Positions 4,508 through 38,509 of a stretch of 39,416 nucleotides of DNA are shown one piece after another; position 1 is the stretch's first letter, and each line of letters opens with the position of its first letter. The stretch comes from Syntrophaceae bacterium (GTDB taxonomy: Bacteria > Desulfobacterota > SM23-61), in assembly GCA_013388675.1 (NCBI GenBank), contig JACAEW010000049.1, positions 1-39,416 on the forward strand, in the 5' to 3' direction. A model generated the notes under the pieces. That model saw only the letters and a program-made list of their open reading frames with translations. It had not been told where the DNA came from and did no database searches. The position numbers and the translations under genes were made by a program.

Positions 4508-6568
4508 TTATCTTGTCTTTATGATCTCTTCGTCGGGAAGCCTCTTAACCCCCGCAGGCCGCGCATTCCCGCCGTTGGGCTCCGTTCCCTCCCTGAAGCA
4601 CTCGTACAGGATTTTCCCTGTTTTTGCCCAACGGGTGGAAAGCAGGGGCTCTCCGTTTTCCTTGTCCACTTTGACGAAGACCACCCCTTCGGGAACGGCA
4701 AATTCCCCCACCGGCACATCCTTGGCCGCTTCCTTCATGAATTCAAGCCAGATCGGCAGCGCGGCCACAGCTCCCGTCTCATGCGTCCCCAGGGGTTTTT
4801 CGATGTCGTAACCCACCCACGCCCCGGCAACCACCTTCCGGGGCAGGTACCCGATAAACCAGGCATCGCGCGTATCATTAGTCGTTCCAGTCTTCCCGGC
4901 GGCGGGGCGGCCCAGAGCCCTGGCCCTCTGCCCGGTCCCTTCCTGAATCACGCTCTGCAAGAGGCTCGTAATGAGGTAGGAGGTCTGCGGGCTGATCACT
5001 TCCATGGAGGAAGGCTCGGTCTCCTCCAGCACCGTCCCGTCCTTGTCCACGACCTGGGAAACCAGAACCGGTTCGGCCCGGTATCCCTGGGCGGCAAAAA
5101 CCCCGAAGGCCTGGGTCAGCTCCAGAAGGGTCACGTTCGCCGCTCCCAGGGCCAGGGAGAGATTCGGTTCAAGCTTGGCCTTAATTCCCAGGTTTCCCGC
5201 GTATTGGATCAGGTAATCGAGGCCGATGGACTGGGCAATTTGGACCGTGGGAACGTTCCGGGAAAAAGTCAGGGCCTTGCGCACGGTGATCGGTCCCCAG
5301 AATTCGCGGTCGAAGTTCTGGGGCTGCCAGGGGTCTTTTCCCGGGACATCCTCGAAGGAAAAGGGCTCATCCACAATGAGCGTGGCCGGGGTAAACCCCT
5401 TATCCAGGGCTGCGGCATAAACGATGGGTTTGAAGGCCGATCCCGCCTGCCTCTTCGCCTGGAGGGCCCGGTTAAACTGGCTCGCGGAAAAATCCCTTCC
5501 CCCCACCATGGCGAGAATAAACCCCGATTGGGGCTCCAGGGCGATCAAGGCCCCCTGGATGGCTTCCCTTCCCTTCCCTTTTCCGCCCCGGCTCTCAAAC
5601 TCCTCCAGCCCCACCTGGACCGCATGCTGGGCTGCCTTCTGCAGCCGGGAATGGATCGTGGTGTAGATTTTCAGGCCCCCCTTATACAATAAATCCTTTC
5701 CGTACTTCTGTTCCATGTACTGGCGGACCTGTTCCACAACATAAGGCGCATCGAGATATCCTTTGGGGCCCCGGGGCTTCAGCCTGACTTCTTCCGTCTG
5801 GGCTTGCTGCGCCTGCTCCTTGGTGATCATCTTCCTTTCGACCATCCGGTTGAGCACGTACAACTGTCGTTCCCGGGCTTTTTTGGGGTTGCGCAGGGGA
5901 GAAAAGTTGTTCGGAGAGGGGGGAAGCCCGGCGAGGATGGCGCATTCCGCCAGAGTCAGGTTCTGGATGGGTTTTCCAAAGTAGGTGCTTGCCGCGGCAG
6001 CCACTCCGTAGGCTCCCTCGCCGAGGTAAATCTGATTCAAATAAAGGAAAAGGATTTCATTCTTGGTCAGGTAGTGCTCGATGCGCTGGGCTAGAATGGC
6101 TTCCTTTAATTTCCGGGAGTAGCTCCGTTCCGGAGTGAGGAAGAAGGACTTGGCAATCTGCTGGGTAATGGTACTTCCTCCCTGAACCACATCCAAAGCC
6201 TCGATATTCCGGAAGGCCGCGCCCAAAATTCTCCAGTAGTCGATGCCCCGGTGCTCGAAGAACCGGGCGTCTTCAGCGGCGATGAAAGCCTTGGGCAGGA
6301 AACGGGGCATCTGGGAAAGGGATACGACCGTCCTTTTCTCGATGAAGAACTCCCCGATCAGCACCTCATCCTCCGAGTAAACTTCGGAGGTAATGTAAGG
6401 CTGATAGTCCTTCAGGGTCGTAAGCCGGGGAAGGTCGAAAACGATGGAGAAATAAAAGGCCATCCCCACTCCCGCCAGGACCACGAGAGCTAGGAGCAGG
6501 ACGATAAGAAAGGGAATCCATCCCCTTTTCTTCCCCTTTTTCCCCTGTCTTTCTCTCTCTTCGTTCAT
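4508..6568 (-). CDS. Penicillin-binding protein 1A (bifunctional transglycosylase/transpeptidase)
   Basis: GT51 EDARFFEHRGID and GGSTITQQ motifs; transpeptidase GSAFKP (SxxK), SRN, KTGTTND; N-terminal TM. ORF extends to 6634; MNEERERQGKKGKKRG start at 6568 preferred. Confidence 0.95.
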   Translation of the reverse strand: MNEERERQGKKGKKRGWIPFLIVLLLALVVLAGVGMAFYFSIVFDLPRLTTLKDYQPYITSEVYSEDEVLIGEFFIEKRTVVSLSQMPRFLPKAFIAAEDARFFEHRGIDYWRILGAAFRNIEALDVVQGGSTITQQIAKSFFLTPERSYSRKLKEAILAQRIEHYLTKNEILFLYLNQIYLGEGAYGVAAAASTYFGKPIQNLTLAECAILAGLPPSPNNFSPLRNPKKARERQLYVLNRMVERKMITKEQAQQAQTEEVRLKPRGPKGYLDAPYVVEQVRQYMEQKYGKDLLYKGGLKIYTTIHSRLQKAAQHAVQVGLEEFESRGGKGKGREAIQGALIALEPQSGFILAMVGGRDFSASQFNRALQAKRQAGSAFKPIVYAAALDKGFTPATLIVDEPFSFEDVPGKDPWQPQNFDREFWGPITVRKALTFSRNVPTVQIAQSIGLDYLIQYAGNLGIKAKLEPNLSLALGAANVTLLELTQAFGVFAAQGYRAEPVLVSQVVDKDGTVLEETEPSSMEVISPQTSYLITSLLQSVIQEGTGQRARALGRPAAGKTGTTNDTRDAWFIGYLPRKVVAGAWVGYDIEKPLGTHETGAVAALPIWLEFMKEAAKDVPVGEFAVPEGVVFVKVDKENGEPLLSTRWAKTGKILYECFREGTEPNGGNARPAGVKRLPDEEIIKTR

Positions 6569-7566: not shown

Positions 7567-8331
7567 TTGTCTCCGGAAGAATCAAAAGCCCAGAAAAGAG
7601 GAACCAGGGACCTGTATTCTTCGAGAAGAAAGTTTACGGCAAAACGCCTATCGATCGTGATTCCGGTATTCAATGAGGCGGGGACCATCCGGGAGGTCAT
7701 CGACCGGGTGCAATCCGCCCCCCTTCCCGAAGGGATCGAACGAGAGATCATCGTGGTGGATGATTTTTCCGGCGACGGCACGCGCGAGATTCTCCGCGCA
7801 TGTGCCTCGACGGACTCTTTTAAGCTTTTCCTGCATGACCGCAACCGGGGAAAGGGGGCCGCCCTTCGAACGGGCTTTGCCCAAACCACGGGCGATATCG
7901 TCTTGGTCCAGGATGCCGATTTGGAGTATGACCCATGGGAATATGGAAAATTGCTCGCTCCCATCCTGGAAGGGAAAGCGGACGTGGTATATGGCTCCCG
8001 GTTCATGGGCGGCGAGGCCAAACGAACACTTTTCTTCTGGCATTACTTGGGAAACCGAATCCTGACCAACCTATCCAATATCTTCACCAATCTGAATCTC
8101 TCCGACATGGAGACCGGCTTCAAGGTTTTTCGGGGGGAGCTGATCCGCAAAATCAAAACCAAGGAAAACCATTTCGGCTTTGAACCGGAGATCACCTCGA
8201 AGATCGCGAAAATGGGAGCCCGGGTATACGAAGTCGGGATCGGCTATTCGGGCCGAACCTATGAAGAGGGGAAAAAGATCACCTGGAAGGATGGGGTGCG
8301 GACCATCTGGACCATCCTGAAACACCACTAA
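7567..8331 (+). CDS. Glycosyltransferase family 2 (dolichyl-phosphate mannose synthase-like)
   Basis: [22 protein letters not shown] ... [21 protein letters not shown] ... [12 protein letters not shown]; probable TTG start at 7567 (ORF track begins at 7255 inside the divergent gene). Confidence 0.85.
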
Positions 8332-8441
8332 AGACATCCTTAACCACTCCTCAACTAACTACCCTGAATCCATCCCCACTTCTAAAATGCCCAATCAAAG
8401 GAAAGATTCCCTAAACCATCTTTTTCTGGTAAGTTTAAGAT

Positions 8442-9296
8442 ATGGCCAGGGTAAACGGAAATAAGGATTATTATCAAATCCTGGGGGTATCGCGCGAGGC
8501 TCCTCCCGAGGAAATCAAGAAGGCTTACCGACAGTTAGCCCTGAAATATCATCCGGACCGGAACCCGGGAAACCGGCTGGCTGAAGAGCGGTTCAAAGAG
8601 ATCAGCGAGGCCTATGGGGTCCTGATGGACCCGGAAAAGAGGAACCAATACGACCTCCTTTCCCGGACCCCCTTCGGGGCCGGCAGACGGCCGGATTTTT
8701 CCTATACTCAGGAAGAGATCTTCCGGGACATTTTCAACAACCCCCAGGCAAGCGATGTTTTCTCCGAACTGGGCCGGGAGTTTGGCCGCATGGGTTTCCG
8801 GTTCGACGAGCGGTTCTTCGACCGCCTTTTCTTCGGAGGGCAGGGTTTCTTCTTCGTCATCGGGGGTCCGGGGGGGTTCCGGTATTCAGCTTCGGCAGGG
8901 CCCCGGGGCCAAAGCAGGAATGCGGATGAGGCCTTCTCTCCCATTCTGGAAAACATCCTGATCCCCCGGGGGACCTCCCTGAAGGGAAGAGTTTTTTCCT
9001 GGGTCTTTCGAAAAGGGCTCGGTTATTTTCTCCGCAGATTCCTGCCCAACGCCTTCCCATCCCAACCTGCTGAGGACAATCCCCTGGACCTCACTTATAC
9101 CATTCCCCTTTCCCGGAAGGAGGTTTCCGTAGAGACCATCAAGGAAATATCCTTTCAGCGAAATGGCCGACAGGAAAGGCTGACGGTCAAGATCCCCCCG
9201 GGGGTCCGGGAGGGCACCCTTCTTCGGCTGCGGGGCAAGGGGAAAGTTCAGGAAGGGGAAGCCGGGGACCTCTACTTGAAAATTCACCTGACCTAG
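8442..9296 (+). CDS. J-domain protein with a single, short C-terminal substrate-binding-like domain
   Basis: [35 protein letters not shown] (HPD); C-terminus [36 protein letters not shown] then stop; no Zn-finger. Confidence 0.88.
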
Positions 9297-9658
9297 CCCC
9301 GAATCCATGTTTAAGATGACATCCCGCTCCATCGCGGACGCACTTGGGTTACGGCCTTAGGCGAGACTGTTTCAAGACAATGGGGAAAAGGGTTTTTTCA
9401 AAAGAAGTGGAGTTAACCAGGGGCCTCGACGAGAGCCAGCCAACAGCTGCCTTGGTTCCCCAATCGGGGGTCCAAAAAACTCTGATCTGCCCACCCAACC
9501 CGCCCTTTTGTTGGGAATGGATTCGTTTAAGACGGCCGCCCGCTTCCTCTAACTGGCCGCCGTTGACTTGGTCCTTAAATGTTCCTTTTATTTTTGACCC
9601 ATCCAGTTAACTTGTAAATCTTCCACCTCCCCTTTTCGTCGGGCGCTGCAAAAAAGGT

Positions 9659-9687
9659 TTGACAAAAGAATTATCTGGAATTATTCT
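9659..9687 (+). promoter_or_regulatory. sigma70-type promoter of perR: TTGACA - 17 bp - TATTCT
   Basis: TTGACA 9659-9664, spacer 9665-9681, TATTCT 9682-9687, ~65 bp upstream of the Fur-family ORF. Confidence 0.65.
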
Positions 9688-9703
9688 TAATTAAGAATTA
9701 TTC
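9678..9703. promoter_or_regulatory. Tandem PerR/Fur-type operator GAATTATTC-TTAATTAA-GAATTATTC
   Basis: Two identical palindromic nonamers (9678-9686, 9695-9703) around the palindrome TTAATTAA; overlaps the -10; a third degenerate copy GAATTATCT at 9668-9676. Confidence 0.65.
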
Positions 9704-9750
9704 TCCTTAACCAATGGGTGGAGAAAACCGGACCGGCGAATTGAGAAAGT

Positions 9751-10209
9751 ATGATCGAGCCTAAAAACCGCCTGGAAAGCATGCTCAAAAAATTAAGAGG
9801 GCGTCAATTCCGAATCACCCCTCAGAGAACTGCGATTTTGAAGGTTTTGGTTTCCAGCATTGAACACCCAACCGTGGAACGAATCTATGAACAGGTCAAA
9901 GCGGATTTTCCAACCACAAGCCTTGCAACGGTGTATAAAACGGTTACCCTCCTCAAAGAACTCAATGAGGTCCTGGAATTAGGGTTCCCCGAAGGGAGCA
10001 ATCGGTATGATGGCCAAAAACCCTATCCTCATCCTCATGTCATTTGCATTCAATGCAAAAAAATCGTCGATCCCGATCTAAGCGGTTTGGCCGATATGAC
10101 CTCCGAACTGAAACAGGAAACCGGTTTCCAAATTATTACCCATCGCCTGGATTTTTTTGGGGTCTGCCCCAGCTGTCAGAAGAAATATAATCAGAAGAAA
10201 TGTAAATAG
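9751..10209 (+). CDS. perR: Fur-family transcriptional regulator, PerR-type
   Basis: FRITPQRTAILKVL..HPTVERIYEQVKADFPTTSLATVYKTV; two CxxC pairs (CIQC, CPSC); Asp in CKKIVD at the position typical of PerR. Confidence 0.87.
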   Translation: MIEPKNRLESMLKKLRGRQFRITPQRTAILKVLVSSIEHPTVERIYEQVKADFPTTSLATVYKTVTLLKELNEVLELGFPEGSNRYDGQKPYPHPHVICIQCKKIVDPDLSGLADMTSELKQETGFQIITHRLDFFGVCPSCQKKYNQKKCK

Positions 10210-21624: not shown

Positions 21625-22551
21625 CTAGGTTAGATGGACGGACTGGCCGCCGATTACAATGATCACCCGCATCACGAAAATCCCGATAATTACCAGGGCC
21701 GCGGAGCAATACTGGACCGCCGGGATCATCCTGGTTTTGGGATGGGCCAGCAGGCCCAGGGGCAGAAAGGCCCCCAGCAGGAGTTCAATCCCCAGGAACC
21801 AGAACGCGTACTCCCCGGTGGTCAGGAGCTGCAGCATGGCGTAGGATTCCGTATCCGAAGAGGCCAACACCGTGAGGTCGCTGCCGATGAGGAAAAGGTC
21901 CGCCACGATAAAGATGATGAACAGGCGAAGCAGAGTTCCGATGACTCCGCGCTGTTTCTCAACCTGCGCCTCGCTCATGGCGGGGGCATTCCGGCGGAGC
22001 CAGATATTGCTCAGAATGATGAGTACGGCCAGCCCGCAAACCATGGCGGAAACCATGAAGAGGGCCGGGTTCAGGGCCGTATTCCAGAACGCCCGGGCCT
22101 TGGAAAGAGCCAGGAAGAATCCCGTGTATCCATGACCGGCAATGGCCACCGGAAGGCCGATGAGGCCCCATGCCCGGGCCTGTTTGGAATTCTCCTGAAG
22201 GACATGGTAGGTGTACCCGACGCAAACGATGGCGTCCAGGGTCAGAAAGATGCTGCCCCAGGTCAGGGGAGAGCTCGGGTTCAGGTACACGAAAAGATGC
22301 CAGAAGCGAAAGGGCTGATTCAGGTCCAGGATGAGAAGGACCGGCGCGCACATGAGAAGAAGCAGAGCGCTCACCGCCCCGATTTTGGCCGTGGGCTTCC
22401 ACTCTTCTTTCTTCATCAGAGTGGCAATGACCGAGGTAATGTACAGACCGGCCATGGAACCGGTTAGGAAGAAATAAACGGCGATTGGCCAACCGATGGG
22501 CATGGCCGAATTGGCGAATTCCGGAAGGTTGTAAATAACGCTTAGGTCCAT
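21625..22551 (-). CDS. NrfD/PsrC-family polysulfide-reductase-like integral membrane protein (orphan)
   Basis: Multi-TM; MPIGWPIAVYFFLTGSMAGLYITSVI..LDLNQPFRFWHLFVYLNPSSPLTWGSIFLTL; start MDLSVI at 22551. Confidence 0.88.
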   Translation of the reverse strand: MDLSVIYNLPEFANSAMPIGWPIAVYFFLTGSMAGLYITSVIATLMKKEEWKPTAKIGAVSALLLLMCAPVLLILDLNQPFRFWHLFVYLNPSSPLTWGSIFLTLDAIVCVGYTYHVLQENSKQARAWGLIGLPVAIAGHGYTGFFLALSKARAFWNTALNPALFMVSAMVCGLAVLIILSNIWLRRNAPAMSEAQVEKQRGVIGTLLRLFIIFIVADLFLIGSDLTVLASSDTESYAMLQLLTTGEYAFWFLGIELLLGAFLPLGLLAHPKTRMIPAVQYCSAALVIIGIFVMRVIIVIGGQSVHLT

Positions 22552-22594
22552 GGTGAATCCCCCCATTTTAAATGGTCTTTGCTTTTTTGATTTA

Positions 22595-22609
22595 GCAAAC
22601 GGTGTGCCA
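22595..22609 (-). promoter_or_regulatory. sigma54 (-24/-12) promoter motif upstream of nrfD: TGGCAC-ACCGT-TTGC
   Basis: Minus-strand TTGGCACACCGTTTGCTAAA matches TGGCAC-N5-TTGC-W with correct spacing; ~44 bp from the nrfD ATG. Confidence 0.75.
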
Positions 22610-22712
22610 ATTAGGATGATTCCGGGGAACTTTAAAAATTTGAAATCATTTAAAAAGGTTAAGCGTAGGCATCCTTCCCCGTTCGAGGTAGAAAGATCGG
22701 AAAGGAGAGGCG

Positions 22713-22734
22713 AATGCAGTAAATTTACTGCATT
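22713..22734. promoter_or_regulatory. 22-bp perfect palindrome AATGCAGTAAATTTACTGCATT, candidate activator/enhancer site
   Basis: Perfect self-complementarity; ~140 bp upstream of the inferred nrfD start site; half-site TTTACTGCAT repeated at 22805-22814. Confidence 0.65.
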
Positions 22735-22770: not shown

Positions 22771-22799
22771 AAAAAGGCATTGATTTAATGAGGCATGCC
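22771..22799 (-). terminator. Possible rho-independent terminator after tctA
   Basis: Minus strand GGCAT-gcctcattaaatca-ATGCC-TTTTT; short stem. Confidence 0.45.
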
Positions 22800-22813
22800 A
22801 TTTTTTTACTGCA

Positions 22814-24310
22814 TCAAGAAGTCCGATTCTTTTTGGCTCTTTCCAGGAAAGCGGCCAGAAACGGGAAAAGCCAGATAATTACGGTTATCGTGCCCAGTAT
22901 GGCGCCGATCGGGCGCATGAAAAAGAGGGTCAGGTCCCAATCTGACTTGATCATGCTGGTCATGAAATTCTGCTCTAATATCGGCCCCAGAACGAGGCCC
23001 AGGACAATCGGTGCCACCGGATACCCGTTGGCTTCCATGAAGTAGCCGATGATCCCCATGATCCCTAGTATCCCGATATCAAAGACGCTGTTGTTGATGG
23101 CAAAGGCCCCGGTGATGGCAAACATGAGGATTCCCGGGATGAGGATGTTCTTGGGAACCCGGAGCATCTGGGAACTGGTTTTCACCGCCAGATACCCGAA
23201 GGGGATCATTAAAATATTGGCCACGATGAAGGCCAGGTAGACAGCGTAAATGATCTGGGGCTGCTGCTCGAAGATCATCGGGCCGGGACGGAGCCCCTTC
23301 ATGAAGAGGACGCCGATGACGATGGCGGTGATGGAGTCCCCGGGGATCCCGAAGACGAGCGCCGGGACCCAGTCGCCGGCAAGGCAGGAATTGTTGGCGG
23401 TCCCGGAATCAATGATCGATTCGATGGAGCCGTAGCCGTATTTCTCGGGCTCCTTGGAGCCTCTCTTGGAAACGGCATAGGCGAGCCAGGCGGCGATATC
23501 GGCTCCGGCTCCTGGAAGAATGCCAATGAAAGTCCCCAGAAGCCCGGACCGCAGAACATTCCATTTATACTTTATGAAAAGTTTCCCCGTGCCCTGAAAA
23601 ATCTTTCCGGCCTGGACCCGGGCGATGGCGAATTTCATCTCCCCCTGCATGACATTGCGCATGACCTCGGAGATGCCGAAAACCCCGATCATGGCCGGGA
23701 TAAAAGAAATCCCGTTCAGCAGCTCCACGCTGCCGAAAGTAAAACGGGGGTACCCCAGAGTGATGTCTACGCCGATGGTGGAAAGGAAGAGGCCCAGAAG
23801 CATGGCCAGGGCCCCCTTAACCTGCGATCCCCGGGAAACCATGACCGTGGCGCTGAGTCCCAGGGCGGCCAGCCAGAAATACTCGAAGGAAGAAAAATTC
23901 ATCGCTACTTCGGCCAGCATCGGGGCTGAGGTCATGAGCACCACAGCGCCCATCAGGCCCCCGATGGCGGAGAAGACCACGTCCACCCCCAGGACCATTT
24001 CCGCCTTGCCCTGCTGGGTCAGGGCGAAGGAATCATGGGTATAGGCGGCGGAAGAAGGGGTTCCGGGGATTCGCACCAGGGCCGCCGGAATATCCCCGGC
24101 AAATATGGCCATGGCCGACATGGTCACGATGGAAACCAGGGCCGGAACCGGATCCATGAAGAAAGTGAAGGGAATGAGCAGGGAGGCGGCCAGGGTGGCG
24201 CTTAAGCCCGGAATGGAGCCGACGAACAAACCGTAAAGAGAGCAGATGCAGATGACCAGCAAGACCTTCGGCGCCATGAGAAGGCCGAGGCCCTGAATTA
24301 GAAAATCCAT
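22814..24310 (-). CDS. Tripartite tricarboxylate transporter large permease TctA
   Basis: GLFVGSIPGLSATLAASLLIPFTFFMDPVPALV..GILPGAGADIAAWLAYAVSKR.. TctA signatures. Confidence 0.95.
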   Translation of the reverse strand: MDFLIQGLGLLMAPKVLLVICICSLYGLFVGSIPGLSATLAASLLIPFTFFMDPVPALVSIVTMSAMAIFAGDIPAALVRIPGTPSSAAYTHDSFALTQQGKAEMVLGVDVVFSAIGGLMGAVVLMTSAPMLAEVAMNFSSFEYFWLAALGLSATVMVSRGSQVKGALAMLLGLFLSTIGVDITLGYPRFTFGSVELLNGISFIPAMIGVFGISEVMRNVMQGEMKFAIARVQAGKIFQGTGKLFIKYKWNVLRSGLLGTFIGILPGAGADIAAWLAYAVSKRGSKEPEKYGYGSIESIIDSGTANNSCLAGDWVPALVFGIPGDSITAIVIGVLFMKGLRPGPMIFEQQPQIIYAVYLAFIVANILMIPFGYLAVKTSSQMLRVPKNILIPGILMFAITGAFAINNSVFDIGILGIMGIIGYFMEANGYPVAPIVLGLVLGPILEQNFMTSMIKSDWDLTLFFMRPIGAILGTITVIIWLFPFLAAFLERAKKNRTS

Positions 24311-36760: not shown

Positions 36761-38509
36761 TCACTCGCAACGGTAGGTTTCCTGAATCAACCCGTTCAAA
36801 AACTGCTCCGGATTTTCCATCCCCTCGGCGGATATCGAGAACTCCCGTTTGCCCGTCTTTTCCCGGATGAGCTTCAACCCGTGTTCATAGTTCTGGAAGC
36901 TTTTCCCCAAATATTCAACCGGGTCCAGCCCCTCCTTCCACACCGTCTCCACCAACCGGTCGATGGCGTCCTCGGTGAAGGACATGGCCAGGTCATTGCG
37001 CCGGGAGAATTTCTCCGCGAATTCCCGGGCCGTATGATGAAGGGCCTGAATTTCCTCCACGACCCCATCCACGTCGGTCAGCGTCTCCACCGACCGACGA
37101 GTAATCAGTTTGATTCTTTCGTCGGAAAAGCGCATCCCGTATTGGGCCTGCCACTCCTGCGCCTTTTGGCGGAGCGAAACCTCCAAGCTTCTTTCCTCCT
37201 CGGCCAAGAGTTCCTGGAAGGCCCTTTCTTGGCCGGGATCGTCGGCATGATCCAGAATTTTTTTCAGTTCCCCCGCGGGGTCGTCCACCATGGCCGGGGT
37301 CACGACCAGGTGGCGGATATTGGTAGAGGGCAGGGTATGCTCGAACTTCAAAAGAACCCTTTCCACCGCGCTCACCAAGCCCCGGGCCCCGGTCCTTTCC
37401 TGGAAGGCGTTTTCCGCAATCCGCCGCAGGGCCTGATCCTCGAATTGCAAATGGATCCCGTAGGCCTTGAAGTCCCGTTTCTTCCCCATGATGATGGGGC
37501 TCTTGGGGTTGCGCAGGATTTTATAGAGGTCGTCCACTTCCAGGTGTTCGAAAACGGTAACCACCGGCAGCCGGCCGATGAACTCCGACTCGAAGCCGTA
37601 TTCGATGAGGTCCTCCGCCTTGACCTTCTTCAGGTACTGGGTCTTCTCGTCTTTGGACCGAATTTCCGCTCCGAACCCCATTCCCTGCCGGTTGATCCGC
37701 TTCTTCACGATGTCGTCCAGGCCGTTGAAAGCGCCGCTCATGATGAAAAGGATATTTTTGGTGTTGATCTTCTTCTTTTCCCGCTTCCCGGTTTTCTGAA
37801 ACTCCATGAGGGCTTCCATCTGGGACACCGGATCATGGGGGACCTTCAATTCCACCTCGGTTTCTTCCATGGGTTTCAGCAACGCCCGCTGGACCCCCGA
37901 ACGGGATACGTCAGGCCCGACCAGATTCGGCGAAGCCGCGATTTTGTCCACTTCATCCAGATAGATAATGCCGTACTGGGCAAGCTCGATGTTTCCCTTG
38001 GCCTCGTAAACCAGGTCCCGCACTAGGTCCTCCACATCTCCGCCCACGTAGCCCGTCTCGCTGAACTTGGTGGCATCCCCCTTGACGAAAGGCACCCCGA
38101 TTTTTTTGGCGATGAGTTTGACCAGAAAAGTCTTGCCCACCCCCGTCGGGCCGATCATGATGATATTGTTCTTGATCTCCCCGACGCTTTCCTGCGGCTT
38201 ATGCCTCCGGTTTGTTTCGAAGGCTTTAATCCGGTTGAAATGGGTGCAGACCTTGGTCGCCAAGACCTCTTTGGCATCGTCCTGCTTGATAAGGTATTCG
38301 TCCAGGTACGCCTTGAGCTCCTCGGGCTTCATGTCGAAATGAATGGCAGCCAGACCCGGCTCTTTTTCTTTTTCCCCGTCGTCAACCTTTTCACCCGCCG
38401 GTTCCGGGATGGGGGCAAACCCGGCAAACTGAATCCTCCGCCCGTATTTTTTGGTCAGGTAATCGCTGAGGTCTTTTTGAATCTCTTTGATATCAATATC
38501 TTTTTCCAT
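36761..38509 (-). CDS. ClpX-like AAA+ ATPase lacking the N-terminal zinc domain, with long C-terminal extension
   Basis: Walker A GPTGVGKT, pore-loop GYVGGDVED, Walker [17 protein letters not shown] near the ClpX IGF-loop position, FIGRLPVV, sensor-2 GARGL; 582 aa. Confidence 0.88.

Follow-up and report, generated by a model that had tools for sequence, protein, structure and literature searches.

A solitary nrfD gene of a Syntrophaceae bacterium is very probably controlled by its own conserved sigma54 promoter and two upstream operators

Comparative analysis of a 39,416-nucleotide stretch of a Syntrophaceae bacterium genome (contig JACAEW010000049.1, the whole of which is here called the window) indicates that its solitary nrfD gene is very probably under its own conserved sigma54 control, with an enhancer-binding protein (EBP) acting at two upstream operators and expression conditional on one signal. 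This reading is strongly supported because promoter box, operators, ribosome-binding site (RBS) and start codon stand out as conserved islands in four genomes. A previous sequence-only reading of the window had proposed sigma54/EBP control by a dedicated regulator; its sigma54 part is borne out by strong footprinting, while the dedicated part receives indirect support, from the uniqueness of the operator per genome. The features of the locus are as follows (the relatives G002, G005 and G006 are introduced below).

21625..22551, minus strand: nrfD-family gene (Pfam NrfD, E = 3.4e-41; 308 aa from the conserved ATG 22551)
22559..22563, minus strand: GGGGG, conserved core of a G-rich RBS (invariant alignment run)
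22583, minus strand: predicted +1 of transcription from the sigma54 promoter, placed from the GC at -12 (22595)
22594..22609, minus strand: sigma54 -24/-12 promoter element TGGCACACCGTTTGCT, exact consensus; GGCA and TTGC invariant in the window, G002, G005 and G006
22715..22732, no strand assigned: putative operator C, TGCAG-N8-CTGCA, core of the palindrome; arms 10/10 invariant, inner bases 2/8; centre at about -140
22777..22781, no strand assigned: third, weaker half-site, ATGCC on the minus strand here and CTGCA in G002, G004, G005 and G006 (alignment)
22796..22813, no strand assigned: putative operator A, TGCAGTAAAAAAATGGCA on the minus strand; 14/18 invariant; abuts the tctA stop codon; centre at about -221
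22814..24310, minus strand: tctA, upstream tandem gene (Pfam TctA, E = 1.9e-131)

On the minus strand, genes for an FMN-dependent alpha-hydroxyacid dehydrogenase, tctC, tctB and tctA are followed by nrfD as the last gene, and a convergent gene for a thiamine-binding protein lies next downstream. ORF calling chose an in-frame ATG at 22566, 247 bp from tctA, which would give a product of 313 aa. It is not the nrfD start, since ATG 22551 (the start implied by the sequence-only reading) and the G-run preceding it are conserved in relatives, unlike ATG 22566; the ATGGA start and the GGGGG RBS are common to four genomes. The claim that nrfD has no iron-sulfur (Fe-S) or molybdopterin gene beside it agrees with our scan of the window ORFs, and no CxxCxxCxxxC motif was found within 1.2 kb of nrfD on the same strand. 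The scanned ORFs likewise include no real EBP, as had been stated; a weak Sigma54_activat match at 36761-38509 turned out to be a ClpX-type AAA protein.

The pattern TGGCAC-N5-TTGCW has a single exact match in the window, TGGCACACCGTTTGCT (about 0.7 matches expected with at most one mismatch), with GG at -24 and GC at -12 correctly spaced upstream of nrfD. The box proposed by the sequence-only reading thus stands, but the 20-mer quoted for it lies at 22610-22591 on the minus strand and not at 22609-22595. From the predicted start at 22583, a 32-nt leader would extend to ATG 22551. The genome itself (G000) has one rpoN gene (Sigma54_DBD, E = 2.2e-61) and about 27 strong EBP domains, and genome-wide pattern searches for TGGCAY-N5-TTGC returned 41 sites versus 9 for the reversed control.

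Further upstream, the perfect 22-bp palindrome AATGCAGTAAATTTACTGCATT (22713-22734) reported in the sequence-only reading proved to be real: none was expected in shuffles, and any perfect palindrome of at least 22 bp occurred in 2 of 200 simulated windows with the same dinucleotide make-up. The distance of ~140 bp given for it is correct from its centre to the predicted transcription start, but not from the ATG, for which it is ~172 bp. The inverted repeats at about -140 and -221 are conserved and fall within the ~80 to 250 bp upstream of the start that characterize EBP enhancer sites. Operator C reads TGCAGCAATAAAACTGCA in G002, TGCAGTAAATTTACTGCA in G005 and TGCAGTATATTTACTGCA in G006, and operator A in relatives reads TGCAG-N7/8-TGCA.

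Three intact nrfD orthologs were found in the same GTDB family, in G002 (an SM23_61 MAG; 91% identity) and in G005 and G006 (82%). All four intact genes encode 308 aa, with dN/dS of ~0.1. As dS between the nrfD lineages is 0.6 to 1.4, with synonymous sites near saturation, neutral positions would not show the conservation found upstream. Alignment of the four intact leaders (window, G002, G005 and G006), in which the full arrangement is represented by three independent lineages only (G005 and G006 are close, dS 0.12), revealed that 18 of 18 critical bases (two operator arms, -24 and -12) are invariant versus 62 of 244 elsewhere in the leader (Fisher p = 1.2e-10). The conserved runs of at least four bases in the operator region are ATGCAGT, AAAAA and GCAT (operator A), AAAT, and TGCAG plus ACTGCA (operator C); between promoter and start they are GGCA (-24), TTGC (-12), GGGGG (RBS) and ATGGA (start). 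The spacer within the box is invariant at 0 of 6 positions. All three orthologs carry GGCA-N6-TTGC, as GGGCATAGGGCTTGCA in G002, with a mismatch at the first T, and as TGGCATGCCCTTTGCT in G005 and G006. The check suggested by the sequence-only reading, conservation of box and palindrome upstream of related nrfD genes, therefore came out in its favor in 3/3 intact orthologs.

A search of the genome for other copies of the palindrome, also proposed there, found only the nrfD site in 5.0 Mb, even allowing 3 mismatches. In G000, G005 and G006, TGCAGT-N6-ACTGCA is confined to the nrfD locus, and G007 has one other, unrelated match. The A/T-centred form of the operator was present in 5 of 395 genomes of the phylum and lay at nrfD in 3 of those 5. 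In two further phylum genomes with TGCAGTATATATACTGCA, neither nrfD nor a sigma54 box lies close to it, and these matches are likely due to chance. The other near-consensus sigma54 sites fetched from G000 have no copy of the operator in the 500 bp upstream of them, so there is no sign of a wider regulon and, judged by these searches, the operator looks private to nrfD, like a single-target switch.

For protein binding, looping, signal, partner and function of the nrfD system, we infer the following here and below. As a single-gene transcription unit, nrfD would be transcribed from its own sigma54 promoter, with RpoN-containing RNA polymerase bound and waiting on the -24/-12 box at 22609-22594. 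A dimeric EBP, probably of the NtrC family, would occupy both operators, TGCAG-N8-CTGCA at about -140 and the second one at about -221. The EBP would reach the polymerase via DNA looping across the A+T-rich stretch and, once the signal is present, use ATP hydrolysis to open the promoter. The cell would thereby make this single NrfD-type quinone-interacting membrane protein only in response to one signal.

Other explanations of the upstream region fare less well. We consider it improbable that the palindrome is the site of a conventional dimeric repressor or activator (GntR, TetR or MarR type) for nrfD or the end of the tct operon, with a real sigma54 box served by another activator. A perfect, unique palindrome of 18-22 bp would suit many such regulators, and no EBP is linked to it; however, its position ~110 bp upstream of -24 is too distant for it to repress in a simple way, a second operator is found 81 bp further on, as expected for enhancer sites, and palindrome and sigma54 box are kept together in every intact locus. 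That the sigma54 box arose by chance and nrfD is transcribed from a different promoter is very hard to credit: some near-consensus boxes elsewhere in G000 sit inside genes and are clearly due to chance, and the reversed control gave 9 matches, but here both tetrads are invariant in four genomes at fixed spacing while the spacer diverges freely, and a scan of the nrfD upstream region predicted no sigma70-type promoter. Least credible of all is a terminator or processing hairpin that ends the tctA mRNA, with nrfD transcribed by read-through, since, although nrfD directly follows tctA on the minus strand and a hairpin of 9 bp can form in the transcript (-10.3 kcal/mol, z -3.1), there is no U-tract, the terminator scan was negative, G002 has operators and box without tctABC, and it keeps only the TGCAG/CTGCA arms with inner pairing lost, which shows that the DNA arms and not the helix are conserved.

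As to the EBP that sigma54 control of nrfD would require, the dedicated regulator of the sequence-only reading gains from the uniqueness of the operator at nrfD in the genome, but an EBP gene next to an operator copy was not found: the operator lies near 0 of the about 25 EBP genes examined in this genome, and by synteny no EBP is located beside nrfD in any ortholog (G002, G005 and G006). In phylogenetic profiles of the EBPs of 8 genomes, only a GAF-EBP on G000:C72 (L045) had a reciprocal best match exactly in the genomes with intact nrfD, closely followed by its tandem neighbor, L066. This is not convincing; the match of L045 is probably a coincidence because these genes belong to an exopolysaccharide-like cluster and lack the operator. 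The tandem pair on G000:C72 (L190, 8273-11528) consists of a GAF-AAA EBP, the one with the reciprocal best match, and a PspF-like EBP, with a sigma54 box between them.

A distant nrfD paralog in G005 (L112, G005:C681, 2998-7191) is located directly 3' of a histidine kinase gene and an EBP gene, with a sigma54 box of its own, TGGCACGAGGATTGC; this provides a precedent in the GTDB family for an NrfD under an EBP. No Fe-S gene lies beside it, and the adjacent EBP, frameshift-split in the assembly, has GAFTDA instead of GAFTGA. The sensor region there contains a CxxCH motif, possibly for haem, and a multihaem cytochrome gene (7836-10112) is found alongside on G005:C681.

The nrfD product matches Pfam PF03916 (NrfD) over its full length (profile 8-310 of 313, E = 3.4e-41). 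NCBIfam equivalog cut-offs were not reached (best TIGR03148, 62.7 versus 347.6 bits), with sub-threshold matches to the NrfD, TtrC, DsrP and QrcD models, and the adjacent Fe-S and catalytic (cytochrome or Mo) subunit genes that define NrfABCD, PsrABC, TtrABC and QrcABCD are absent among the window ORFs scanned. A single-sequence phmmer search yielded no solved-structure relative at E 0.001. In the tree, the four solitary NrfD proteins form one clade (support 100/100), whose sister clade comprises NrfDs from G003 and G004 that are Fe-S-linked and encoded in molybdoenzyme clusters, plus a solitary one in G001. Since these closest outside relatives, in the GTDB-family mates G003 and G004, belong to Fe-S/NrfD/molybdoenzyme clusters, the nrfD product is probably an exchangeable quinone- or ion-handling membrane subunit serving a partner whose genes lie elsewhere. 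That nrfD has been retained under purifying selection while neighbor genes were lost points to a functional protein, in the simplest case such a subunit. More speculatively, and in our view unlikely, the solitary NrfD may be the sole target of one EBP, either as a signal-induced, free-standing quinone/ion-handling module that joins existing respiratory or transport complexes when needed or as a protein acting alone, carrying ions or sensing in a quinone-linked manner.

The components of the system are of known kinds; what sets it apart is the solitary nrfD as target and the single-target operator. The sigma54 regulome of Desulfovibrio vulgaris, also of the Desulfobacterota, similarly combines a -24/-12 box with pairs of inverted half-sites further upstream, an intervening A+T-rich leader and many EBPs per genome (PMC4641369). 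Here, however, the target is a solitary nrfD, a protein family without mention in the main text of that study, and the EBP is not adjacent, in contrast to the promoters with NtrC-family EBP sites described there. The Escherichia coli AtoC operator of atoDAEB (GCTATGCAGAAATTTGCACA; PMC3118216) likewise has two neighboring elements upstream of a sigma54 promoter and TGCAG and TTGCA half-sites, but the half-sites are spaced by 4 bp versus 7-8 bp here, and the target gene is unrelated. In its 18-bp dimension the present operator is nearer the NtrC type. The membrane subunits PsrC, NrfD, TtrC, DsrP and QrcD (reviewed in PMC8076601) share a nearly full-length Pfam NrfD domain with the present protein, but no Fe-S or catalytic subunit gene adjoins any of the four orthologs studied here. 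NrfD-like subunits are familiar as components of complexes, with the Fe-S and catalytic subunits encoded next to them, and no papers on a solitary NrfD under sigma54 were found in the literature searched. A solitary NrfD under strong purifying selection with a conserved sigma54 switch suggests a quinone-handling module regulated apart from its partners. For an uncultured deltaproteobacterial lineage, it also offers a clean promoter with a single target, which can be used for seeking the matching EBP.

The surroundings of nrfD have been remodelled in several relatives. While tctA is directly upstream of nrfD in G005 and G006, G002 (L070, G002:C228, 12335-12764) has lost tctABC but kept the dehydrogenase gene, nrfD, operators, sigma54 box and whole leader. 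In G005 (L072, G005:C473, ~5690-5990), an insertion of ~296 bp separates the -12 box from the nrfD start, with box and operators intact; it carries the dispersed inverted repeat GTCATTCCGGCGAAAGCCGGAATC, of which exact copies of the core number 41 in G005, 85 in G006 and 2 in G000. Deletion has reduced nrfD to a remnant in G007 and G004, where the sigma54 box is missing too, but operator A is retained in both (alignment), and in G004 the operators nearest tctA persist despite the dehydrogenase, tctC and tctA being remnants. The G007 remnant (L076, G007:C34) has nrfD codons 124-166 fused to 246-313; that of G004 (L077, G004:C126) consists of codons 245-312, accompanied by only the 3' parts of the dehydrogenase gene, tctC and tctA. 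The retained nrfD 3' parts of both start at CAGCTCTTAACC, a shared junction that may reflect a short-repeat deletion.
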